Source: an uncultured Lentisphaerota bacterium (lineage in GTDB: Bacteria; Verrucomicrobiota; Kiritimatiellia; RFP12; UBA1067). Taken from it: a stretch of DNA of 64,000 nt. Positions 7,682 to 39,079 of the stretch are shown in pieces. The notes below the pieces were generated by a model that saw nothing but the letters and a program-made list of their open reading frames with translations, had not been told where the DNA came from and searched no databases. The stretch is taken from the NCBI GenBank assembly GCA_946413265.1, contig CAMKJU010000002.1, positions 1 to 64,000 on the forward strand, in the 5' to 3' direction. The position numbers and the translations under genes were made by a program. Numbering within the stretch: the first letter of the stretch is position 1; every line of letters begins with the position of its first letter.

Positions 7682-8356
<675 letters not shown>

Positions 8357-8357
8357 G

Positions 8358-9584
8358 TCAGCCTTTCAGCGCCTCCACGGGGTTCTTAGACGCGGCGAGG
8401 AACGCCGGAATGAGCGACGCAAGCAGTCCGAATACATACACGATCACGACCACCCATACGACATCTTCGGCAACGAGCCGGTAAGGAATCGCGTCGAGTC
8501 CGTAGACCGCCTTGGGGAACACCTGCACGCCGAAGCGCGCCAGCCAGTCCACGATGTTCTGGAGGTTGCACAGTACGGCATACGCGGCGGCGAGTCCGAG
8601 AATGACGCCGGTGGTGACCTGCACGAGGCCGTGTACCACGAACGCGCCCATGATCTTCGCCTTGGAGAAGCCAAGCGCCTTCAAGAGGCCTACCTCGGAA
8701 GTCTTCTGCACTGTCAACACGAGCAGCGTGTTCATCACGCAGAAGAGCGCCACTACGGTGACGAGCAGCAGAAGGAGCGCCGTCATGTTCTTCTCCACGG
8801 CGAGCGCGTTGAAAATCTCGCGATCCGCCTGACGCCAAGTGACCACGCGGCACGTAGGGGCCGCGTCGGCAATCTGACTGCATACAGCGTCGAATACGGG
8901 TGCGTTGGCGGGCTCGTCCGTCTTGACGTGCAAGGCGAACACGCCCTCCTCAAGCCCCATCAGGTCGCGGGCGTTCGGCAACGAGCAGATGGCGAAATGC
9001 GCGTCATAGTCACGCTGCCCGGAAGAGAATATCCCCGTCACGCGCCACTTGAGCGGGAGGAATATCTCGTCGCGGGAGGCAAGCGTCTTCGGCGAGTAGA
9101 CAGTGACGTCGTCCCCCACCCACACGCCAAGCGACCGGGCAAGGTCTATGCCGAGGACGATTGAATCGCCCTCCAGGTCAAAGGCCCCAGCGCGCGGCTT
9201 GCCAATCTTGTAGACATCTCCCATGCGGTCGGGATCGACGCCGAGGATGACGGGCGTGTTTACACGCCCACGCCACTGCAGCATGACGGGTGTGTCGATT
9301 TCCGGCGAGACTGCAAAGACGCCCGGTATGGCGGCAATCCGATCTGCCAGCGCACCCTCGCCGCGGATAACAGGCCCCGGACCGCGTGATTGCAGGGTGA
9401 CATGCGGCTTGAAGTCGAGTATCTTCTCCTGCCAGAGATCGCCGAATCCCGTCATAACCGCGCGGACGATTACCACAACGGCCACGCCGAGCAGCACCCC
9501 GATAACCGAAACGCAGGTGATCACGCTGGTCACGCTGCGCTTGGGCTTGAGGTATTTGAGCGCGAGAAACAGACTGAACGGCAT
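8358..9584 (-). CDS. lolE: Lipoprotein-release permease (LolC/LolE family)
   Basis: A 408-residue membrane subunit of a LolCDE-type transporter. It begins with the family's FLALKYLKPKR segment and a first membrane helix (about 20-42), then a large periplasmic domain (about 45-275) and three C-terminal helices (about 280-300, 325-350, 372-398), the MacB/FtsX topology. Only one permease gene is present beside lolD, so the complex may be a homodimer; LolC and LolE cannot be told apart here. The stop is one base from the lolD start, and the upstream toroid gene ends 3 bp before its ATG. Confidence 0.9.
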   Translation of the reverse strand: MPFSLFLALKYLKPKRSVTSVITCVSVIGVLLGVAVVVIVRAVMTGFGDLWQEKILDFKPHVTLQSRGPGPVIRGEGALADRIAAIPGVFAVSPEIDTPVMLQWRGRVNTPVILGVDPDRMGDVYKIGKPRAGAFDLEGDSIVLGIDLARSLGVWVGDDVTVYSPKTLASRDEIFLPLKWRVTGIFSSGQRDYDAHFAICSLPNARDLMGLEEGVFALHVKTDEPANAPVFDAVCSQIADAAPTCRVVTWRQADREIFNALAVEKNMTALLLLLVTVVALFCVMNTLLVLTVQKTSEVGLLKALGFSKAKIMGAFVVHGLVQVTTGVILGLAAAYAVLCNLQNIVDWLARFGVQVFPKAVYGLDAIPYRLVAEDVVWVVVIVYVFGLLASLIPAFLAASKNPVEALKG

Positions 9585-9587
9585 AGA

Positions 9588-11264
9588 CTAGATGTCGATA
9601 GTCACGGTGATCTCGCCGGATTTGTCCTTTGAGAGATCCTCTACGTCCTTCTCGACCTCTGTCGCCTTAAGCTGCGTGGTAGGCAGATAGCGGTAGTAGA
9701 CCATCAGCTGGAGCGCGGCGAGGCAGGTGTCCATGACGGGACGCGTGGTGTGCGGGTCCTTGTTCACCCAGTGTCCGACCGCCTGTGGTTTTCCCTTGGC
9801 GTCTTTGATTGTGACGGGAGAACCGTCCTTGTTTTTGTCATCAATAATCGTGTTGGGATAGAGCGCCTTCATATCGGCGTTCCACTTCTTCCAAAGCGCC
9901 TTGTTTCCCGAAGACGCATTGTTGGCCATGCCTGCCTGGTACTTGCACTGCGTCGCGTAGTAACAGTAGTACTGCGGGCAGGAGCCGGCGCTCTTGTCAG
10001 ACTTCCCCTTGAGGAGGTCTTTGGGGTCAAAGGAGGGCTTCCAGTCGCGCATGAAATCAAGGGCCTCCTTCACCTCCTTGGTGTTGCTGTACCCTAGTAA
10101 CTGCATCGCGAGGCATCCCGTGGCCGTGAGACCGGTCGGATTACCATTCGCCGTGTAGTTAAAGCCGCCATTCTTGAAGTTGCGCGTCTGGAGGCACTTG
10201 ATGGCCTTCTTGATGCATTCATCCATGCCGTCAAGGTGGATGCCCGCCATCTTGCCCGCCTTAATCGCCTGCAGGGCCCAACCGGCAAATGAAAGGTCAT
10301 CGCGCGTAGATTTGGGATTGATGTTGTAGTCCCATCCCCCTGTTGGAGACTGTCCCTTGATGATCCGTTTCAGCGTCTTCTCCGCCGCCGCCCGCGCATC
10401 GGGGTTCGTCGTCATGCCATACGCCTCGCAGAGGGCGTATGTGCCGATCAAGAAGGCATACTCGTGTCCGTCCGACCCGGACATGACCACCTTGCCGTTC
10501 TTATCTTCGTGGATAGAACGGATGAGGAACTCAAGCCCACGCTCCACGGTCTTGCCGAATTCCTGCGACGACGGCGTCTCGCCGTGCGCAAGGTACGTGA
10601 GGATGGCAAGTCCAGTGGAAGCCGGCTTTACGCCCGGCCACGACCCGTCGGGGTTCTGGTGCAACTTGAGCCAGCGGAGGGCCTTCATCACTGCGCCCTC
10701 CGTCCTGGGATCGCCCCACTGGTCGCCGCCGCCAGTGTACCGGCCGCGCACGCCGGCGTTGCGGGACGTGCCGGCGACGGACTTCATGGTGACGGGGCTC
10801 TTGATGTTCAGCATCGCGTCCACGGTGGCCACCTTGACGGACTGCGGTTCGGCCGTGGGCGGAGCCACTTCGGCCTGCTCAAGGGGCGAGATGCTCGGCG
10901 CGTCCATCGTCACCTCCACGTCCATGTCCTGAGGCTGTTCCGTCTCTGGCGGCTTCTCGATTTCCTCCAGAGGCTTGTCCTCCTCGACCTGCGCCAGTTC
11001 AACAGTGACCTTCTTCTCGGACGAGTCGCCCATGGCCGTCACCACGAACAGGATCGCGGCGCCGATGACCGGCAGGAGTATGGCGAGAAGCGGGGCGATC
11101 TGGCGCTGGAGCTCCAGCACCGCCTCCTTGTACTCGCGCGACGCATGAGGTCGGCCGAGACCCGAAAACATCTTGAAGAGGCGCTTGAAATAGCCCTCTT
11201 CCTCGTACTTCGCCATCTCCTCGGCGAGCTGTTCCTTCATTTCCTCTTCGTTGATCGTTTCCAT
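9588..11264 (-). CDS. TonB-like anchored protein with prenyltransferase/squalene-cyclase-type toroid domain
   Basis: A 558-residue protein in three parts. Residues 1-50 are cytoplasmic and acidic/helical. One membrane helix lies at about 55-78. A periplasmic Pro/Glu-rich stretch (about 85-140, with EEIEKPPETEQPQ) resembles the spacer of TonB. Residues about 185-530 form alpha/alpha-toroid repeats of the prenyltransferase/squalene-oxidase type, with recurring QNPDGSW, PTGGWDY and NGGFNY motifs. No cyclase DxDD motif is seen, so a binding rather than catalytic role is more likely. It is the last gene of an exbB-exbD-exbD set, where tonB would be expected. Confidence 0.82.
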   Translation of the reverse strand: METINEEEMKEQLAEEMAKYEEEGYFKRLFKMFSGLGRPHASREYKEAVLELQRQIAPLLAILLPVIGAAILFVVTAMGDSSEKKVTVELAQVEEDKPLEEIEKPPETEQPQDMDVEVTMDAPSISPLEQAEVAPPTAEPQSVKVATVDAMLNIKSPVTMKSVAGTSRNAGVRGRYTGGGDQWGDPRTEGAVMKALRWLKLHQNPDGSWPGVKPASTGLAILTYLAHGETPSSQEFGKTVERGLEFLIRSIHEDKNGKVVMSGSDGHEYAFLIGTYALCEAYGMTTNPDARAAAEKTLKRIIKGQSPTGGWDYNINPKSTRDDLSFAGWALQAIKAGKMAGIHLDGMDECIKKAIKCLQTRNFKNGGFNYTANGNPTGLTATGCLAMQLLGYSNTKEVKEALDFMRDWKPSFDPKDLLKGKSDKSAGSCPQYYCYYATQCKYQAGMANNASSGNKALWKKWNADMKALYPNTIIDDKNKDGSPVTIKDAKGKPQAVGHWVNKDPHTTRPVMDTCLAALQLMVYYRYLPTTQLKATEVEKDVEDLSKDKSGEITVTIDI

Positions 11265-11285
11265 GGCGGCTGCCTCCTTTCCTCA

Positions 11286-11684
11286 CTACATACTGAAAAT
11301 GGACAAATTGTACATCTTGTGCTTGTTGCAGATGTCGAGTACCTGCACCAGGGTCCCGTGGTAGGAATCCAGCGAGCAGCGCACGAGCACCGTCGACTTC
11401 GTGGACGACGCGGCCAGTTTCCTGATGTTGCCGTCGAGGTCCTTCAACGACATGCCGCGGCCGTTGAATATGACGCCGCGCGGGCCTACGTCGATCTTGA
11501 TCTGTGTGTCGTTCTCCTCCGTCTGCGCGGAGGGCGTGGCGTTCGGCGCCGGACGGTTCGCGTTCAGTTTCGAGAAGATGTCCTCCTGCTTGATCGTGAC
11601 GATGAAGAAGATCATCAGCTGGAAGACGACGTCGATCATCGGCGTCATCTCGGCCTTTGGATTGTCGTATTCTTTTCGTGCCAT
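11286..11684 (-). CDS. exbD: ExbD/TolR-family biopolymer transport protein (second copy of pair)
   Basis: A 132-residue protein with one N-terminal membrane helix (about 17-37). That helix carries the ExbD proton-path aspartate in EMTPMIDVVFQLMIFFIV, and a small periplasmic domain follows. It works with ExbB to convert proton flow into force on an envelope partner. Upstream by 21 bp is a second exbD and downstream by 21 bp the toroid protein, so these form one unit. The two ExbDs differ in their periplasmic domains, suggesting a heteromeric complex. Confidence 0.93.
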   Translation of the reverse strand: MARKEYDNPKAEMTPMIDVVFQLMIFFIVTIKQEDIFSKLNANRPAPNATPSAQTEENDTQIKIDVGPRGVIFNGRGMSLKDLDGNIRKLAASSTKSTVLVRCSLDSYHGTLVQVLDICNKHKMYNLSIFSM

Positions 11685-11705
11685 CGCCTGCCTCCTGCGG
11701 TCCTG

Positions 11706-12131
11706 TTATTTCTTCGCCTTGTGTTCCTGGATGGCCACGAACGAGAGCTTCCACACGCCGCACGCTGCGCAGATGTTCATCACGCGCGCTATGTCCTTGT
11801 GCCTCGTGTACTTGTCCGCGCGGATCATGCACGGGAACTCGGCGCCGTAGCGGTTCTTGCGCTCGGTTATCTTCTGGGCGAGCATCTGGTCCGTCAAAGT
11901 GACGTTGGACAGCGACACGCGCCCCGACCTAGCCACGTCGATCGTCAGCTGGGAAGGCGGCAGCTCCTCCTGCGTGAGGACGATGCCGTTCTTCCCGTCC
12001 GCGAGCTTGATGGTGGTGTCCTTGTCGTCGCTCATCTTGAGCGTCACGACGAAGAAGATAATCAGCTGGAACACGACGTCGATCATCGGCGTCATGTCCA
12101 GGGACACGTCTTCGTTCTTAGGTTTCTTCAT
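11706..12131 (-). CDS. exbD: ExbD/TolR-family biopolymer transport protein (first copy of pair)
   Basis: A 141-residue protein with membrane helix about 18-37 and the conserved SLDMTPMIDVVFQLIIFF segment; the Asp is the proton-carrying residue of the family. The periplasmic domain (about 45-135) ends in a Lys-rich tail. It lies 21 bp after exbB and 21 bp before the second exbD. GC and style match its neighbours. Confidence 0.94.
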   Translation of the reverse strand: MKKPKNEDVSLDMTPMIDVVFQLIIFFVVTLKMSDDKDTTIKLADGKNGIVLTQEELPPSQLTIDVARSGRVSLSNVTLTDQMLAQKITERKNRYGAEFPCMIRADKYTRHKDIARVMNICAACGVWKLSFVAIQEHKAKK

Positions 12132-12152
12132 GGGAAGACTCCCTTCCCCGCA

Positions 12153-12980
12153 TCAGGCCTCGGAATCGACTTCGACGTTGCGGAGCGGCTTGATGAGCTC
12201 CATCGTGAGCGCCGTCATGCGAAGGATCAGCCTATTGGCGTTGTTGCGGATCGAGTAGAAGAACGTAAGCGCCGGGATGGACACCACGAGGCCGCCGGCG
12301 GTCGTCCAGAGGGCCTGAGAGATGTTGCCGGCGAGCGCGCCGATGTCGGGCACGCCGGAAGCCAGCGTCGCGAAGCAGAGGATCATGCCCTGCACCGTGC
12401 CGAGCAGTCCAAGGGACGGGGCGAGGTTGGAACACACTGAAATCCACGTGAGGCGCTGCATGATGCGCTCGATCTCAAGGTCGGCTGCAGCGTTGACGGA
12501 CTCCTGGATCACGTCGTAGCCGTCCTCCACGTGCTGGAACGCGGCCGCAAGCACGTTTGACATAGGCGACGGCTCAGCCTCGCATGCCTTTATCGCCTTC
12601 ATCACGTCGCCCTCGGCAACCGCGCCCTGGACGTTGTTGATGAGGGTCTGCGGCATCAGCTTCTGGGGCTTGATGAGCACCCAGCAGTCCACGATGAAGT
12701 AGATGGCCGCCGCGCCGTCGAGGAAGAGGGCCGCCCACAGGATCACGCCCAGAACGCCCGAGCCGAATACTACGTCCACGAAGCCACCGGGGCCAGACTT
12801 CTTCTTCTCGCTCCCGTCAACGGGCTTTCCGTTTTCGTCCACAAGATCGCCGCCGCCTGCGGCGGCCGCGGCGGGGGCTGGATCGTCCGCCAGCGAAACA
12901 GACGTCGCGACCGGGGCCGCGACAAGGCCAAACAGCATCATCGCCGCGACCACACTCTTGCGCATTTTCATCATTTTCAT
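12153..12980 (-). CDS. exbB: ExbB/TolQ/MotA-family proton channel with cleavable leader
   Basis: A 275-residue protein. A signal-peptide-like start (about 1-31, ending SVSLADD) is followed by an Ala/Gly/Lys-rich low-complexity linker to about residue 65. Three membrane helices follow in the ExbB pattern, with the conserved LGLLGTVQGMILCF stretch and a final helix in LWTTAGGLVVSIPALTFFY. The added leader resembles larger ExbB proteins of PVC and Bacteroidota members. Start with AAGAGGAAG ribosome-binding site. It heads the exbB-exbD-exbD-toroid unit. Confidence 0.92.
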   Translation of the reverse strand: MKMMKMRKSVVAAMMLFGLVAAPVATSVSLADDPAPAAAAAGGGDLVDENGKPVDGSEKKKSGPGGFVDVVFGSGVLGVILWAALFLDGAAAIYFIVDCWVLIKPQKLMPQTLINNVQGAVAEGDVMKAIKACEAEPSPMSNVLAAAFQHVEDGYDVIQESVNAAADLEIERIMQRLTWISVCSNLAPSLGLLGTVQGMILCFATLASGVPDIGALAGNISQALWTTAGGLVVSIPALTFFYSIRNNANRLILRMTALTMELIKPLRNVEVDSEA

Positions 12981-13062: not shown

Positions 13063-13860
13063 CTACTTGTTCGCCCACGGGCTGTTCGCATACGCGCGCT
13101 TCAGTTCCGTGCGCATCGTGTCGGCCCGGGTACTGTGGTTGAGCGTGTCGAAGCAGCGGGCGGCCTTGTACAACGCCTCCGGCCGGAGCCTGTCTGCGAT
13201 TTCGGCGTCCTTGTACAGGAACACGACGCGGAGGTATCCGTCGATCAGCGCCTTCTTGCAGGCGTCGCCGGAACCGTTTCCGGCCTTCATCGCGATGTCG
13301 CCGCGCATGATGAGCGCAGCCCCGTGCGAAAAGCGGTCGTCGCCCTTCTCCGCCCTTTCAAGGGCCTTCTCGAGCTGGGACTGCCTGTTGAGGCTCAGAA
13401 GCGCGCTCCAGTAGGCCGGGGCGAGATCCCCTCGGTACGCGGCGGACGGCTCGCCGTCGATGATGCCCTGGCACACCTTCAGCGCCTCGGCCGGTTTTTC
13501 GTCGGCGACGTAAGCCTCGGCGAGGTAGCGGCCGGCAATCTTGTCCCACTGGAGATGCGCGTAGTCCTTGACGATTTTCCGGAGCGCGGGAATCGCGGCG
13601 GCGCCCTGTCCTTTCGCCACCTGCGCGGCGGCGACGGCGAACGCGGCGGGCTTCTCCACCTCGACGCTCTCCACGTCGTCCGCCTTGTACTGCGTCTCCA
13701 GCTTGCCTTTGGTCACGACGTACGCCTTGTCGCGCGCGCTCCACCGCACGGCGCCACTGTACACGTCGCCTGTTTTCAGCGTCACCTTGCCCGGCACGTC
13801 CGCAGTGCCCGCTAGGGCCGCAAACGCGCACAGCGCCGATATGAATAGTTTTGTCCGCAT
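13063..13860 (-). CDS. Exported TPR-like protein
   Basis: A 265-residue protein with signal peptide (MRTKLFISALCAFAALAGTA). A short beta-rich segment follows (about 25-70, VTLKTGDVYSGAVRW), of the kind seen before TPR repeats, then helical repeats of TPR type to the end (ALRKIVKDY, ALKVCQGII, ALYKAARCFDTL). Probably periplasmic. It lies 24 bp after the 1,059-residue TPR gene and 82 bp before exbB, so it is likely an accessory of the same ExbBD system. No enzymatic motif seen. Confidence 0.75.
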   Translation of the reverse strand: MRTKLFISALCAFAALAGTADVPGKVTLKTGDVYSGAVRWSARDKAYVVTKGKLETQYKADDVESVEVEKPAAFAVAAAQVAKGQGAAAIPALRKIVKDYAHLQWDKIAGRYLAEAYVADEKPAEALKVCQGIIDGEPSAAYRGDLAPAYWSALLSLNRQSQLEKALERAEKGDDRFSHGAALIMRGDIAMKAGNGSGDACKKALIDGYLRVVFLYKDAEIADRLRPEALYKAARCFDTLNHSTRADTMRTELKRAYANSPWANK

Positions 13861-13884: not shown

Positions 13885-16800
13885 TTAGTTGCCTTCCAGT
13901 GGCTTGAGGACCGTCTCCACGTCCTGCTTGTGCTTGCCGTTCGGGAATAGCTGGCGGTACTTCTCGCCGTATGCGAGGATGTCCGCCTTGTCCGACCCGT
14001 GGGCTGCCATGAGCGGCAGGAGATAGGAGTAGCAGCGCTCGAGGTTCTCAAGCTGCTTTGCCGACATGTCCTTGGCCGGATGCTCTTCGGTGGGCTCATG
14101 CGCCATGAGGAACGCCTGGAAGTTTACGACCGCACGGCCGCGCGTCTCCTTCATCGCTTCCTGTAGGTTCATCGCCGACTCCGCCTGGATCTTGCGCAGC
14201 AGCACCTCGCCGCTGCGGATGTCGAGCTCGTCCTGCTCCAGCTGCGTCTTGCGGTAGGCGCGCAGTTTCTTGAGCGCGCGCACTGCGGTGTTGAACGCGT
14301 TCATGCGCAGCGAATCGTCTTTCTGGCGGCTGCCCTCCTCGGAGGCGACATCCACCAGCATCTCGTAGGCGTCGATCACGAGCGCGGACTTGTCGTACTT
14401 CTCGATGAAGTCGTCCAGCTTCTGGCGCGCGTCGGCGTAGTTCTTCGCACCGTAGGCGGCCCTCGCCTGGCCGATCAGCGCGGGCGCGAGGTAGGCCGTC
14501 GAGTTCGTCATCTGCCCCGCGAGCTCGGCCGCCTTCGCGTAGGCGTCGCCCGCCACCATCCAGCTCTTCGCCTCAAGGAGCGCGTCGCCGGCCATGAGGA
14601 ACTGTCCGGCCGTGTACTTGCCGCCTGACGTCTCCAGCATCTTCTTGTATTCGGCCACGCCCTCGGAGTGCAGGCCCATCTCGATGAGCGTCTTCGCGAG
14701 GATGGGCACGGAGTTCTTCGCGAATTCCGAGTTCGGGAAGTCGCGCTGCAGGCGCGCGAACGCCTCCTGCGACTTCTTCATGAATTCGGCGGACAGCTGC
14801 TCGTCCTTGGCGTCTGCGGTCCTCTTGCTCTCCGAAGTGTAGATCGTGCCTATCTTGACGAGCGTCTGCGGCGCGTATTTCCCCTTGGGATAGACTTCGA
14901 GGTACTTCTCAAAAGCCTTGATCGCCATGGCGCGGATCTTCGGCAAGTTCTTCTCCTCTACGTGTCTCATCAAACGCTGCCAGCTGGCACCCTCGAGGAT
15001 GATGGCCTGCTCGCGGCGCAGGACATACTGTTCCCGCACTTTTTCGTCAAGTGTCTTGCCCTCGGCCTCCAGCGTCTTCGCCAAGTCGGCCGCCACGCCG
15101 CGGAAATCCTTGATCGAGCCCACGACGCTGCCATAAGCCTTCTTGCGCATGGTCCCGGCAACAGCCACGTCGTTCGTCGCATCGGCGGCGTCAAACGCGG
15201 CAAACGCCTGCTTCTGCTGGATAAGCGCCAGGTTCAGCTGCGCCGTGGTGCGCGCGCCGACCTTGTCCGTGGCTTTGATGAATTCCCGCAGCCACTTTTC
15301 CTGCTCGGCGACGTCGCCGGTCTTTTCGCTGCAGGTGGCCAGGTACTGGAGCGCGTCCACGGCGTGGGGCGACTTCGGGTAGCGCTTGACGAGCTGCTCG
15401 TAGAAGCGGATCGCCGTACTCCAGTCCTCGGCCTTGTACGCCTGCGTGGCGAGCATGTACGACATCTGCGCCGCGTTGTAGTGGTCGGGATAGTTCTCGA
15501 AGAAGGCGTCGTAGAGCTGCTGCGCCCGGGCGCGGTTCCCGAAGTCCTTCTCCTTCGCCGCGAGTCGCAGCGTCTCGTTGCCCGCCAGGCGCACGAGCCC
15601 CTCGGCCTCGCCCTTGTATTTCGTTGACACGAAATCCTCGGCCTCCGCCGCGAGCTTCGCGAAGTCGGCCTGCTCCGGCGAGCCCTTCTTCGCGTTCTGG
15701 CGCAGGTTCACGTAGCAGTCCGCCAGCACGCCGCGCGCGCTCGCGGAATCCTCCGTCTCCTTCTCCAGGTTGGCGAGTATCTTCTTGTATGCCTCGACCG
15801 CCTTGGCGTAATCCTGGCCGCGGTACAGCTCGAACGCGTCCTGGTATTTCCTCTTGCGCAGGTTGTCGATCTGCGCGGCCGTGATGTTCGACTTGATTTC
15901 CTTGTTGTAGCGCTCCTTCACGAACTTCTCGATCTTCTCGGTCAGCTCCCCCGCGTCTGCGGCCCAGGCGGACTCCTGGTATTTCGCGCACACGTTGATC
16001 GCGTGGTTGTACGCGCCGAGGCCGTTGCGCTTGCCGTTCTTGCCGCGCACGCCGAAAAGCGAGTCCTTGATCAGGTTCTCGTCCGCCTTGGGCTTTTTAG
16101 CCTCGACCTGCACGCGGTCCCACAGCATCTTCGCGAGCAGGTAGCGGCACTCAGGCATCGGGCTCGCGCGCACGTAGCCCTCCTTGCCCTGCGGGTCCTG
16201 CTCGACGAGGCTGCGGTGGATCTCGCTCAGCTTCGGCATGTATTCGTTCACGAGGGCCTGGGCCTTGGCGGGATTGCCGCGCAGCATCTCGATGTGCGCC
16301 CTCATCGCGATCGCCTTGCCGAACACGATGATGAACTCGCTCTTCCATAGAAGCCTTTTCACGAGCGCCTCCGCCTGCGCGATGTATTCGCCGCGCTTCT
16401 TGGCCTGCTTGTCCTTCGGGTCTGCCGACATCTCCTCGGCGAGGCGGAGCAGGAGCTCCACGTCCTCCATCGCCACCATACACCAGGTCTTCCCCGTGTC
16501 GGACAGATTCGCGAGAAGCCTGCCGTACATGCGCACGGCCTCGTCGTATACCTTCTCGCGCACGCACATCTGCGCCCAGCGGAATCCGCTTTCCACGTAG
16601 AAGTCCAGGATGTCCGCCCCGGGCTTCGCGACGGCCTTGAAGAACTCGCCGTAGATGCCCCGGCATTCCTTCATCATGCTGCGCGCGTAGTAGGCGTCCG
16701 CCATCGCGAGCCTGAGGGCCCAGTACTCGCTTTCCTGCCCCTTCTTGCCCTTCAGCGAGTCGACGACCTTCTGGACGGCGTCGAACTTGCCGAGGCGCAG

Positions 16801-17064
16801 GTCGCCCTGCAGCTCCAAAACCCTCAACTTCGGCCCGGCGTTTGGCCACTTCTTCTTCGCGGCCGCGATGACCGTCTCGGCGAAGTCGGGCATGTTGGCC
16901 TCCACGAGCGCCTCGATGAATGCAATTTCCTCCGTCAGCGCGGGGTCGGCCGCTGCGGCATTCGCGGCATCGTCATCCGCGCCATCTGCCGCCACCGCAG
17001 AGGGCAGACAGGCACATGCGACAGAGAGCGTCACCGCGCAAGTTATGGTATGGCTCAGTTTCAT
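13885..17064 (-). CDS. Large exported TPR protein
   Basis: A 1,059-residue protein. Signal peptide MKLSHTITCAVTLSVACACL ending at ...AVAADG. The rest is almost wholly tetratricopeptide-type helical repeats, with clear cores such as YDAFFENYPDHYNAAQMSYMLA, AIRFYEQLVKRYPKSPHAVDALQYLA and AFEKYLEVYPKGKYAPQTLVKIG, the YfgC/YbgF-like 'Y-P-x-S-x-x-A-x-x-A' pattern. Such scaffolds gather envelope partners; here the neighbours are ExbB/ExbD genes. Start chosen at 17064 because the signal peptide begins there; an in-frame start at 17100 would precede the predicted transcription start. The promoter places the +1 at or next to the ATG, so the message may be leaderless. Confidence 0.85.
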   Translation of the reverse strand: MKLSHTITCAVTLSVACACLPSAVAADGADDDAANAAAADPALTEEIAFIEALVEANMPDFAETVIAAAKKKWPNAGPKLRVLELQGDLRLGKFDAVQKVVDSLKGKKGQESEYWALRLAMADAYYARSMMKECRGIYGEFFKAVAKPGADILDFYVESGFRWAQMCVREKVYDEAVRMYGRLLANLSDTGKTWCMVAMEDVELLLRLAEEMSADPKDKQAKKRGEYIAQAEALVKRLLWKSEFIIVFGKAIAMRAHIEMLRGNPAKAQALVNEYMPKLSEIHRSLVEQDPQGKEGYVRASPMPECRYLLAKMLWDRVQVEAKKPKADENLIKDSLFGVRGKNGKRNGLGAYNHAINVCAKYQESAWAADAGELTEKIEKFVKERYNKEIKSNITAAQIDNLRKRKYQDAFELYRGQDYAKAVEAYKKILANLEKETEDSASARGVLADCYVNLRQNAKKGSPEQADFAKLAAEAEDFVSTKYKGEAEGLVRLAGNETLRLAAKEKDFGNRARAQQLYDAFFENYPDHYNAAQMSYMLATQAYKAEDWSTAIRFYEQLVKRYPKSPHAVDALQYLATCSEKTGDVAEQEKWLREFIKATDKVGARTTAQLNLALIQQKQAFAAFDAADATNDVAVAGTMRKKAYGSVVGSIKDFRGVAADLAKTLEAEGKTLDEKVREQYVLRREQAIILEGASWQRLMRHVEEKNLPKIRAMAIKAFEKYLEVYPKGKYAPQTLVKIGTIYTSESKRTADAKDEQLSAEFMKKSQEAFARLQRDFPNSEFAKNSVPILAKTLIEMGLHSEGVAEYKKMLETSGGKYTAGQFLMAGDALLEAKSWMVAGDAYAKAAELAGQMTNSTAYLAPALIGQARAAYGAKNYADARQKLDDFIEKYDKSALVIDAYEMLVDVASEEGSRQKDDSLRMNAFNTAVRALKKLRAYRKTQLEQDELDIRSGEVLLRKIQAESAMNLQEAMKETRGRAVVNFQAFLMAHEPTEEHPAKDMSAKQLENLERCYSYLLPLMAAHGSDKADILAYGEKYRQLFPNGKHKQDVETVLKPLEGN

Positions 17065-35846: not shown

Positions 35847-38021
35847 TCAGCCCCTTTTCCTGCGGCAGCAGCTCCAGCAGACGAGCACCGACACGCCCGC
35901 GAACGCGAACGCGGCCAGGCGGTGGCTCCACAGCAGGACCTCCTGTCCAAGCTCGCCGTAGACCGTCATCATCGGCATCACAGCCGTGAACACCGTTCCG
36001 ACCGCGCACACGAGCCAGAGGAGCCAGAGGATTCCCTGCCCGAACTTCTTAGTACGGTCGGCCGCACGGAAGAGCGCAAGCAGAGCCGCACATGCCGCGA
36101 GGGCGCCGCCCGCCACCATGTGGAGGACCAGCCACCAGCTCGTCATGCCGCCGCACATCCAGCCGATTGCTCCCGAAAGGGCGAGGTAGATGAGACTGAC
36201 AACGAATCCCATATCCACAATCCACTTCGTGAAGCCCCAGGCGAAGGACAACGTGCCCTCGGAAATCTTCGCGCCGAGACGGTTCAGCACCACGGCCGCC
36301 GCCGCACATACGAAGAGGAAGAGGAAGCCGAACACCGACCAGAGGAAGAACTTGAAGATCGGACGCATCGCGAACGTCGTGCCGAGTACGGCATGATAGG
36401 CGGGCGACAGTCCAAGGAACTCTGTCTGCTGGACCGGATCGACCTCGGCGTCCACGATCGGCCCCGTCGGCACGACCTTCCCGAAGAAGAACTCTGAATC
36501 CGACGTATGACAGTCCGCGCACTTCACCGGCGCTGCGCCGCGTGCCTGACGAGCCGGACGCACGTCGTGGCCGACCGGCCAAGAAACCGGCGCCGCAGCC
36601 ACATGCTCGCGCGCGACGATTGTTGCGTTCGTACCATCGCCCTCGGCCGTCCAGAGGCGTCCGTGTCCGATAAAGCCGAACGACGCCTCTGGCTTCTTCG
36701 CCTTCAGCTCGTTCAGCATCCCCGCCACCACGGCCTTCGTGAACGCGTTCGTGCCGCGTGCGTTAAGCTCCGCAACGGTTTCGGGAGGAAGCGGCTTCAC
36801 CGTGTCGTTCGTGCCCAGCTCCGCGAAATAGCTCGGCCACGTCATGCGGTGCGCCTCGACCTTGCCCTCGGCGTTCTTCACGAACACGGGTTCCACAATG
36901 TTCGGCACGTCCGTGGCCCACTGGGCGCGTCCGTAGATGCCAATGCGGTTCGCGCGCGCCGTACGCACCTGCGCCCGCGCGCCACCCTGCGTCACGCCGC
37001 TGTGGCACACCGTGCAGGAAAGCTTCTCGAAATGGACGAGCGGGATGCCCTCGTGTGTCGGACGCGGCCCCGCGCCCTTCGGATCAGTATGGCAAGCCTG
37101 ACAGCTCGTCGTCGCAATGCGGTGGTCCATGCCGTTCTTGTGGCAGTCCACGCAGGTAAGCCCACGCTGGAGATGCACGTCGCCCGCGATCGAGTGGGAC
37201 GGCACACCAGCCTCGCTCACCGCATGGCAGGCGAGGCAGTTCTCGTTCTTCGGACGCCCCACTTCGAACACGCAGCGGTTCTTCGCGTCGAACCTGCGGA
37301 GGTCGTAAATGGTTTTCTCCGGCACCTTGAAGAGATGGTCGTCTGGGTTTTCGGCGCGGAGGCCGTCCCACGACGACTCCAGCCGTTCGTTCATGCCCTC
37401 GACGGCGCCGAGTCCGCTCGCCGCCGTCGCTGCGCCCGCGAAGTTCTCGCGCAACACCTGGCGCGCCCACTCGCTCGAGTCGTAGCCGCGCTGCTGGTGG
37501 CACGCGAGGCAGTTGGGACCGAGCGGTCCCGTCACGAACCAGCGCTGGCGCTCGCCGGCGACCTCCCCAACCGCGCGCGGATCACTGCCCACGCCACCAC
37601 CGGGGAAATTCCGCCCGAACATCTTCGTCCACTGCCAGCAGGAAAGACCAAATTCGGCGGGGCTGAACGCGCCAGCCTGCCCATGCAGCGTGAGCGGAAT
37701 CGCCGTGCCCGTCTTCTCGTCCGCCCAGAACCAGGGCTCCACAGTCACCGACTCCGGCGCGTCGTTGGTATCCAGCCCCGTGCGGAAGTGAGAGCCGCCG
37801 GACATCAGGTGCGTATCGTGGCACTGCGTACACGTCTTCGCCTGCGAGACGGGCTCCGGCAGCACGGACGCGGGGGAAATCTTTTCACCGTCCGCATCCA
37901 GCGGGGCGATGCGGTGGACGGGCACCGTGCGGCCGCCGTTGAAGTGGTCGGCCAACAAGGCGAACGGCACCGCTGCAATGGCGGCGGCGCAAGCGCGAAA
38001 AACAAATTTCATCGTTCTCAT
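35847..38021 (-). CDS. Membrane heptaheme c-type cytochrome
   Basis: A 724-residue protein. Signal peptide about 1-24 (FVFRACAAAIAAVPFALLA). Periplasmic part with seven CxxCH haem sites: CTQCH (64-68), two CLACH, CVDCH, CQACH, CTVCH and CADCH. After about residue 545 come four to five membrane helices with conserved His (HMVAGG, SHRLAAF) like di-haem cytochrome-b-type anchors. The combination suggests a quinol- or menaquinol-linked redox module. Next gene is apbE; upstream are exbD and exbB, 3 bp away. Substrate unknown; nitrite/tetrathionate-type reductases share the haem motif but not this layout. Confidence 0.85.
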   Translation of the reverse strand: MRTMKFVFRACAAAIAAVPFALLADHFNGGRTVPVHRIAPLDADGEKISPASVLPEPVSQAKTCTQCHDTHLMSGGSHFRTGLDTNDAPESVTVEPWFWADEKTGTAIPLTLHGQAGAFSPAEFGLSCWQWTKMFGRNFPGGGVGSDPRAVGEVAGERQRWFVTGPLGPNCLACHQQRGYDSSEWARQVLRENFAGAATAASGLGAVEGMNERLESSWDGLRAENPDDHLFKVPEKTIYDLRRFDAKNRCVFEVGRPKNENCLACHAVSEAGVPSHSIAGDVHLQRGLTCVDCHKNGMDHRIATTSCQACHTDPKGAGPRPTHEGIPLVHFEKLSCTVCHSGVTQGGARAQVRTARANRIGIYGRAQWATDVPNIVEPVFVKNAEGKVEAHRMTWPSYFAELGTNDTVKPLPPETVAELNARGTNAFTKAVVAGMLNELKAKKPEASFGFIGHGRLWTAEGDGTNATIVAREHVAAAPVSWPVGHDVRPARQARGAAPVKCADCHTSDSEFFFGKVVPTGPIVDAEVDPVQQTEFLGLSPAYHAVLGTTFAMRPIFKFFLWSVFGFLFLFVCAAAAVVLNRLGAKISEGTLSFAWGFTKWIVDMGFVVSLIYLALSGAIGWMCGGMTSWWLVLHMVAGGALAACAALLALFRAADRTKKFGQGILWLLWLVCAVGTVFTAVMPMMTVYGELGQEVLLWSHRLAAFAFAGVSVLVCWSCCRRKRG

Positions 38022-38024
38022 CTG

Positions 38025-38447
38025 TCACTTGCCTTTATCTTGGTCCTCTGTAGCGAGCGAGAAGTTCCACACGTTCGCCGTGCGGCAGGCGTCGATAAGG
38101 GACATGAGCTTCTCGTAGGGAACGGTCTTGTCCGCGCGGATCACGACCGGCTGGCCGGGGAAGTTCTCCGCAATGCGCGTCAGGCGCGACGTGACGTCCT
38201 CTAGCGTGAGGTGCTGTCCGTTCACCGATACCTCGCCCTTGTCGTTGAGGTTGAGGATGATCTCGCCCGGCATGCGTCCGGGAATCGTGGCGCTCTTGGC
38301 GGTGGGGAGCGTGATCGCGACCTCGGTCTCCCACTGCGAAAACACGCTCGACGTCACGAAGAAGCAGAGGAGCAGGAAGACGACGTCCATCAAAGACGCC
38401 ATCTGCACGGTGGGCGCGCTGCTCCGTTTGTTTTTCCTGAAGTTCAT
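38025..38447 (-). CDS. exbD: ExbD/TolR-family protein
   Basis: A 140-residue protein with membrane helix about 20-40 and the VQMASLMDVVFLLLCFFV segment; the Asp matches the proton-path residue. Periplasmic domain about 45-130. It overlaps exbB by 4 bp and ends 3 bp before the cytochrome gene. This is the second ExbBD set in the window and has a single ExbD, unlike the set at 11286-12980. Confidence 0.92.
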   Translation of the reverse strand: MNFRKNKRSSAPTVQMASLMDVVFLLLCFFVTSSVFSQWETEVAITLPTAKSATIPGRMPGEIILNLNDKGEVSVNGQHLTLEDVTSRLTRIAENFPGQPVVIRADKTVPYEKLMSLIDACRTANVWNFSLATEDQDKGK

Positions 38448-39079
38448 GCAAATGCCTTCTCAAGTGCGACGGCGAGCGTCTCGAGTCCCGAAATGCGCTT
38501 CGACGCGCGGCGGCGAAGCATGGCGTGGAAAACGAGACAGGGAATCGACACGACGAGACCGAACATCGTGGTGATGATGGCCTGCGAAACGCCCTGCGCG
38601 AGCACGACGGGACGCGCGTTCGCCGCGAGGTCGTTCGCGATGCCGCCGAACGCCTGGTACATGCCGAGCACCGTTCCGAGCAGACCCACCAGCGGCGCGA
38701 TCGCCGCGATGTCCGCCAGCCAGTCCACGGCCGCCTGAATCCGCTCCGCGAGGTGCGCGCCAGCCGTCTCGACCGCCGCCGACACGGGCGGCTTCGTACC
38801 CTGCGGTGCGCCGCGAACGGCATCGAGCGCCGCGAGCACCAGTACGCCGAACGGACACGGACGGCGCTGGCAGAGCCGGCGCGCCTCACCGTAGTCGCTC
38901 GTCTGTAGACGGCTGAACACGTCGCTGACAAGCGTCCGCGGCGTGATGGCTGCCCTACGCTGAGCGAGCAGAAGGTAAAGGACGATTGCAAGCGCGATCA
39001 CGGAAAGTCCGGCAAGCACCCACATGAGCGGGCCGCCGTTGCGCCACGCCTCCGCCAAGGTAATCCCTGTAATATTCAT
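38444..39079 (-). CDS. exbB: ExbB/TolQ-family proton channel
   Basis: A 211-residue protein with three membrane helices (about 18-38, 125-150, 165-190), the VGLLGTVLGMYQAFGG motif of the family and the final helix IITTMFGLVVSIPCLVF. No cleavable leader, unlike the other ExbB here. Start overlaps the argH stop by 4 bp, so argH, exbB and exbD are read together. Confidence 0.93.
   Translation of the reverse strand: MNITGITLAEAWRNGGPLMWVLAGLSVIALAIVLYLLLAQRRAAITPRTLVSDVFSRLQTSDYGEARRLCQRRPCPFGVLVLAALDAVRGAPQGTKPPVSAAVETAGAHLAERIQAAVDWLADIAAIAPLVGLLGTVLGMYQAFGGIANDLAANARPVVLAQGVSQAIITTMFGLVVSIPCLVFHAMLRRRASKRISGLETLAVALEKAFA

Follow-up and report, generated by a model that had tools for sequence, protein, structure and literature searches.

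What does an ExbB/ExbD motor drive when the gene found where tonB is expected encodes a protein that ends in a different fold? This question is raised by a locus in a stretch of 64,000 nucleotides from an uncultured Lentisphaerota bacterium (contig CAMKJU010000002.1 of assembly GCA_946413265.1, positions 1 to 64,000; the whole stretch is hereafter called the window), where genes for ExbB, two ExbDs and a membrane-anchored toroid protein, named here TOR, occupy positions 9588-12980. An earlier note on this DNA, made from the sequence alone, described these four genes, which are recovered here as open reading frames with strong Pfam matches for those of the motor, and viewed them as part of a force-driven envelope machine. 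Our analysis shows that TPR-TPR-ExbB-ExbD-ExbD-TOR is a real, conserved and motor-linked gene set. TOR is probably a force transducer of the proton-driven ExbB/ExbD motor, built in the manner of TonB and TolA and carrying an alpha/alpha toroid as its head; we infer a system that is TonB-like in mechanism and not TonB by domain.

All genes of the block are on the minus strand, those from ExbB to TOR being tightly spaced. The genes, with the parts of TOR, are the following (window positions; evidence in brackets).

9588-11264, minus strand: TOR, 558 amino acids, with a TonB-like anchor, a linker and an alpha/alpha toroid (open reading frame, Pfam, AlphaFold, Foldseek)
11034-11099, minus strand: TOR membrane helix, residues 56-77, with A57-P58-x2-A61-x3-P65 (AlphaFold, alignment)
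10989-11009, minus strand: TOR D-box-like strand VTVELAQ, residues 86-92 (TonB pattern of PMC10907165)
10716-11027, minus strand: TOR Pro/Glu linker, residues 80-183, predicted to be mostly disordered (AlphaFold)
10743-10820, minus strand: TOR end-of-linker motif DAMLNIKSPVTMKSVAGTSRNAGVRG (also in a YfbK-type vWA protein of the same genome)
9660-10715, minus strand: predicted TOR alpha/alpha toroid, residues 184-535 (AlphaFold, Foldseek, family profile)
9591-9617, minus strand: conserved TOR C-terminal tail GEITVTIDI, residues 550-558 (alignment)
11286-11684, minus strand: second ExbD, MTPMID-type membrane Asp retained (open reading frame, Pfam)
11706-12131, minus strand: first ExbD, membrane Asp retained (open reading frame, Pfam)
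12153-12980, minus strand: ExbB with a Sec-type leader, T195, T227 and P236 retained (open reading frame, Pfam)
13063-13860, minus strand: TPRs, an exported protein with a predicted five-strand beta-barrel followed by an alpha-solenoid (open reading frame, Pfam, structure prediction)
13885-17064, minus strand: TPRL, a long exported TPR protein (open reading frame, Pfam)
8358-9584, minus strand: LolE-like permease (MacB_PCD and FtsX), a variable neighbour downstream of TOR
7682-8356, minus strand: LolD-like ABC ATPase, a variable neighbour downstream of TOR

Pfam assigns the motor proteins to MotA_ExbB (3e-25) and ExbD (1.8e-18 and 2.6e-22), and the motor residues are retained, namely the channel threonines and the proline of ExbB and the membrane Asp of ExbD. 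The leader on ExbB and the two exported TPR proteins upstream, both described in the earlier note, are borne out by Sec-type leaders on all three products; the barrel and solenoid of TPRs are predicted with high confidence. The AlphaFold model of TOR (72 sequences) consists of two short helices, a membrane helix at residues 43-78, a disordered region at 80-169 (predicted local distance difference test score, pLDDT, <50), a toroid from residue 170 to about 535, mostly with pLDDT >90, and a disordered tail; this is the topology of a force transducer, with a single N-terminal transmembrane helix, a disordered linker and a globular C-terminal head. No TonB_C or TonB_2 domain was matched by Pfam in the window protein and the aligned members, and the head is a toroid rather than a vWA/YfbK C-terminal domain in AlphaFold and Foldseek, so that the earlier suggestion of a squalene-cyclase-type toroid in place of the TonB domain stands. 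The structures retrieved by Foldseek are alpha/alpha toroids (sugar epimerases, GH76, squalene-hopene cyclase (SHC) and farnesyltransferase beta), with target TM-scores mostly of 0.5-0.62. The Pfam match of the window protein to SQHop_cyclase_C, at 3.1e-5, falls below the cut-off; this family is matched by 71 of the 72 aligned members, window TOR counted in. The predicted head can safely be placed in the alpha/alpha toroid class, a fold from which no single function can be deduced.

The gene set is widely conserved. Of 59 relatives, 57 are matched by the TOR query; according to the named genome contigs, they come from metagenome-assembled genomes of Kiritimatiellae, Lentisphaerae and Verrucomicrobia. 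In a wider scan that covered 388 genomes of the phylum, 197 were found to contain the family. In the Kiritimatiellae set, ExbB and two ExbDs are encoded directly upstream of 47 TORs, with 3 more cases at contig edges, one tandem copy and 7 TORs that could not be judged; the order TPRL-TPRs-ExbB-ExbD-ExbD-TOR is complete in 45 of the 47 operons. Among 75 loci from the phylum scan, 54 have ExbB-ExbD-ExbD upstream of TOR and 5 were too short to score. Since these loci were chosen from the best matches, with anchorless toroids outside the survey, the fractions are not those of a random sample. Even in the blocks that are most distant, TPRL and TPRs are homologous to the others over their full length.

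Coupling of TOR to the motor is suggested by two sequence patterns. The strand by which E. coli TonB docks on ExbD lies just after the membrane and reads hydrophobic-polar-hydrophobic-polar-hydrophobic-hydrophobic-polar (PMC10907165); VTVELAQ of TOR fits this D-box pattern and likewise lies just after the membrane helix. As scored, with Thr also counted as hydrophobic, the pattern occurs in 49 of 72 TORs (shuffle mean 6.2, maximum 14), and 44 of these 49 have it at one and the same offset. It is present in 39 of 45 operon TORs versus 5 of 19 orphans (raw Fisher p 5e-6) and, in a larger set, in 61 of 92 operon TORs versus 7 of 25 without ExbBD nearby, figures suggestive of loss of the D-box in orphan TORs. 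The second pattern is the Ser-x3-His motif by which TonB and TolA bind ExbB and TolQ (PMC12215075); it is found in the membrane helix of 49 of 78 TORs from a phylum-wide sample (shuffle mean 3.8, maximum 10), usually as G-P-x2-S-x3-H. In the window lineage the same alignment columns are occupied by A-P-x2-A-x3-P, with A61 and P65 nearly invariant. At position 89, the partner ExbB has Ser in 37/37 cases with a Ser-x3-His TOR, and 48/52 from the window lineage have Gly or Ala there, a co-change that fits a shared interface. In the Kiritimatiellae set, 40 of the 47 TORs in operons end in a GEITVTIDI-type tail (shuffle mean 0.3), with alternating hydrophobics in the last nine residues, which is possibly another docking strand. 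Of the TonB-like anchor and Pro/Glu spacer claimed earlier, the membrane helix and the disordered linker are supported by the AlphaFold model, and the Ser-x3-His motif is present in relatives and missing from the window protein. Together, the D-box-like strand and the Ser-x3-His motif of the relatives strengthen the force-driven reading, in which force transduction itself is putative.

Several observations weigh against this reading. Between roughly one quarter and one third of the scorable TOR genes stand without ExbBD close by: 22 Kiritimatiellae TORs, versus 50 in operons, lack it within 2.6 kb, and 16 of the 70 scorable phylum loci have none beside TOR. The earlier note had named toroid genes standing mostly without exbBD as an outcome that would speak against its idea, and the balance is the opposite one (47 plus 3 at contig edges vs 22, and 54 vs 16 in the phylum sample). 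Window TOR has A61-x3-P65 where its relatives have Ser-x3-His; the association of the D-box with operons is not significant by an independent-pairs test on the tree (median p 0.45); and few evolutionary events, with 3 changes counted on the tree, underlie the co-change of anchor and ExbB. The invariant polar toroid residues H227, E280, D323 and K335 are also compatible with an active site. The lolDE genes, which the earlier note included in the machine, vary across loci. Finally, the "new business end" that it proposed holds for the toroid head, and vWA-headed transducers on the same plan have been published (PMC12204202).

Orphan TOR genes mostly have unrelated neighbours, among which genes for an extracytoplasmic function (ECF) sigma factor and a zf-HC2 anti-sigma factor recur: orphan TOR genes lie directly upstream of such a pair at loci L069, L071, L073, L077 and L079, the assignment being based on Pfam for the L069 pair and on homology for the other four. 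Second TOR copies, some with altered linkers, occur near the operon copy at L086:11915-13495, L091:11659-13296 and L040:8778-10658. A plasmid-borne Planctomyces toroid has no adjacent ExbBD among the genes listed.

The neighbouring LolDE could point to a Tol-Pal-like machine for envelope constriction or lipoprotein trafficking, which we consider unlikely. The FtsX-type permease and the ABC ATPase downstream of TOR are consistent with LolE and LolD, LolE follows TOR in many genomes, ExbB and ExbD are nearest to TolQ and TolR in NCBIfam, and YbgF/BamD-type TPR models match TPRL; however, LolDE is absent beside TOR at many loci, and neither Pal nor TolB was noted among the genes of the block, a genome-wide search for them not having been made. 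LolDE was rejected as a core part of the set and is regarded as a variable neighbour.

The toroid could also be an enzyme (a terpene cyclase, a prenyltransferase or a carbohydrate-active lyase or epimerase) that is tethered to the motor for location only. The TOR family profile matches SHC repeats at 4e-11, 34 of the 72 members match Pec_lyase, sugar epimerases and GH76 top the Foldseek list, and numerous polar residues of the toroid are invariant. Against this, target TM-scores to any enzyme are about 0.3-0.6, no isoprenoid genes were seen in the operon, and the class II cyclase motif is poorly kept. The earlier note had found no DxDD in the window protein, which indeed reads T-R-D-D at this site; across the family the statement has to be qualified, as 7 of 72 members have the complete motif at the aligned position. 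D376-D377 of SHC align with D322-D323 of TOR, the Asp aligned with D376 varies among TORs, and D323, the last Asp, is the only invariant residue of the site, so class II cyclase chemistry is not a common trait of the family and a conserved cyclase site, the other outcome that the earlier note had named against its idea, is not seen. A merely tethered enzyme is quite unlikely, although catalysis of another kind may still occur. Two specific identities were rejected: squalene/hopene cyclase, for which DxDD is not conserved, and a thioester-type TED, whose GC[GA]EQ motif was not found.

That TOR is a lineage-specific TonB tail still opening TonB-dependent receptors in ordinary TonB transport is very improbable: ExbBD is present and TOR has a TonB-like anchor, linker and D-box, but it lacks a TonB_C domain, the receptor plug domain (PF07715) was not matched in the window's genome, which is 92.8% complete, and contig C6 (L137:4159-6212) encodes a further set, ExbB-ExbD-TonB-like with a TonB_2 domain, which is the more usual transducer of this genome. 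A canonical TonB identity was rejected on the first two of these grounds. The genome has five ExbD genes; in the window itself, a second ExbB-ExbD pair (38025-39079, minus strand) lies beside a multihaem cytochrome protein (35847-38021) and an apparent ApbE-type gene, with no TonB-like gene identified there.

Under the preferred force-transducer reading, ExbB would form a pentamer with the two ExbDs as its rotor, as expected from homology, and the membrane helix of TOR would pack outside ExbB, as the Ser-x3-His motif of the relatives implies. The D-box-like strand may dock on the periplasmic domains of ExbD, and proton flow would rotate ExbD and thereby pull on the TOR linker. The toroid, which most likely grips without catalysing a reaction, would then move a partner located at the outer membrane or in the periplasm; by synteny, the likeliest partners or adaptors are the exported TPR proteins of this gene set.

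A lead on the cargo is provided by genome G161, which we take to be that of A. muciniphila BAA-835. It carries two tandem TOR genes (L174) that are not near ExbBD, and elsewhere an ExbB-ExbD-ExbD-TPR-TPR locus (L195), which by gene counting presumably corresponds to about Amuc_0543-0548, that is, to the locus MUL1 reportedly described by Davey et al. in 2023. The order of GH2 genes at the edge of L195 fits Amuc_0539 (GH2 names as in PMC11790493). The MUL genes are required for the accumulation of mucin products in internal compartments (review, PMC12418764), and MUL1 has been likened to the Sus system (PMC13174399). The window operon shares ExbB, two ExbDs and two TPR proteins with the inferred MUL1 locus and differs from it in that the A. 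muciniphila toroid genes lie elsewhere; given this similar layout, our leading guess for the cargo role is that the system handles polymers or glycans at the outer membrane. Orthology of the two loci is doubtful, as TPRL matches its counterpart no better than another TPR protein of that genome and the match of TPRs is weak; the similarity serves as a lead. The tandem toroid proteins of L174 have nearly identical N-terminal halves and diverging toroids.

Other heads appear to be carried by the same genes. In genome G133, which belongs to the window's class, the five-gene TPR-TPR-ExbB-ExbD-ExbD chassis precedes a toroid at L183 and Ser-x3-His-anchored proteins with non-toroid heads at three further loci: those of L284 and L285 have no confident Pfam family (only a weak PA14 match, E 0.063), and that of L286 looks like vWA by eye and has no Pfam match. 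The end-of-linker motif of TOR is common to a YfbK-type vWA protein in the window's genus, and in the window's own genome the linker end of the vWA protein at L032:5082-7694 (minus strand, contig C54) is 58% identical to that of TOR over 66 residues. This vWA protein has a long N-terminal part and one transmembrane helix. The chassis before differing heads and the common linker motif suggest that the heads are interchangeable. A bolder extension, rather doubtful as a whole, is that two TPR proteins, ExbB and two ExbDs make up a proton-driven machine of the envelope that is modular, is spread throughout the Verrucomicrobiota/Kiritimatiellota and takes toroid, vWA-like and other heads in exchange for one another. 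In this scenario the toroid form would need no TonB-dependent receptors to pull glycan polymers, mucin for example, across the outer membrane.

For a long time, TonB and TolA were the sole known heads on transducers of the ExbBD/TolQR type. A toroid head that much of a phylum retains together with its motor and a pair of TPR proteins would make the motor-anchor-linker unit a chassis for unrelated heads. The system would also be a candidate for what powers processes at the outer membrane in bacteria that, like that of the window, lack TonB-dependent receptors. The question is testable, since some TOR homologues come from complete genomes assembled as a single contig; one such genome is apparently that of A. 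muciniphila, a species with a reported transposon library.

Several known systems are close to TOR. It resembles TonB in its anchor topology, D-box pattern, Pro/Glu linker and ExbBD motor, and differs in lacking the TonB C-terminal domain and receptor plug genes and in having two ExbDs and two TPR partners. With TolA it shares the Ser-x3-His anchor of its relatives and a motor scoring nearest to TolQ/TolR, but not the TolA/TonB C-terminal domain or, as far as noted in the block, TolB and Pal. Repeat-level sequence similarity and fold class relate the head to the toroids of squalene-hopene cyclases and prenyltransferases, whereas in TOR the DxDD is not conserved and the toroid is membrane-anchored and encoded alongside a motor. 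Among the papers searched, none links ExbBD with a toroid. Williams-Jones et al. (2025) described vWA-headed transducers that have motor boxes and SHLS anchors; in bacteria of the Planctomycetes-Verrucomicrobia-Chlamydiae (PVC) group, these are often encoded downstream of a TPR gene, tolQ and a tolR pair. A toroid is nowhere mentioned in the main text of that paper (PMC12204202). Like these proteins, TOR joins a transmembrane helix and a disordered linker with a motor box to an unrelated globular head, and its operon matches the TPR-TolQ-TolR-TolR-transducer plan; unlike them, it has an alpha/alpha toroid instead of a YfbK-like vWA fold and, in the window lineage, no His in the transmembrane helix. 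The novelty is the toroid head; the TPR-TolQ-TolR-TolR operon plan was already published with vWA heads.

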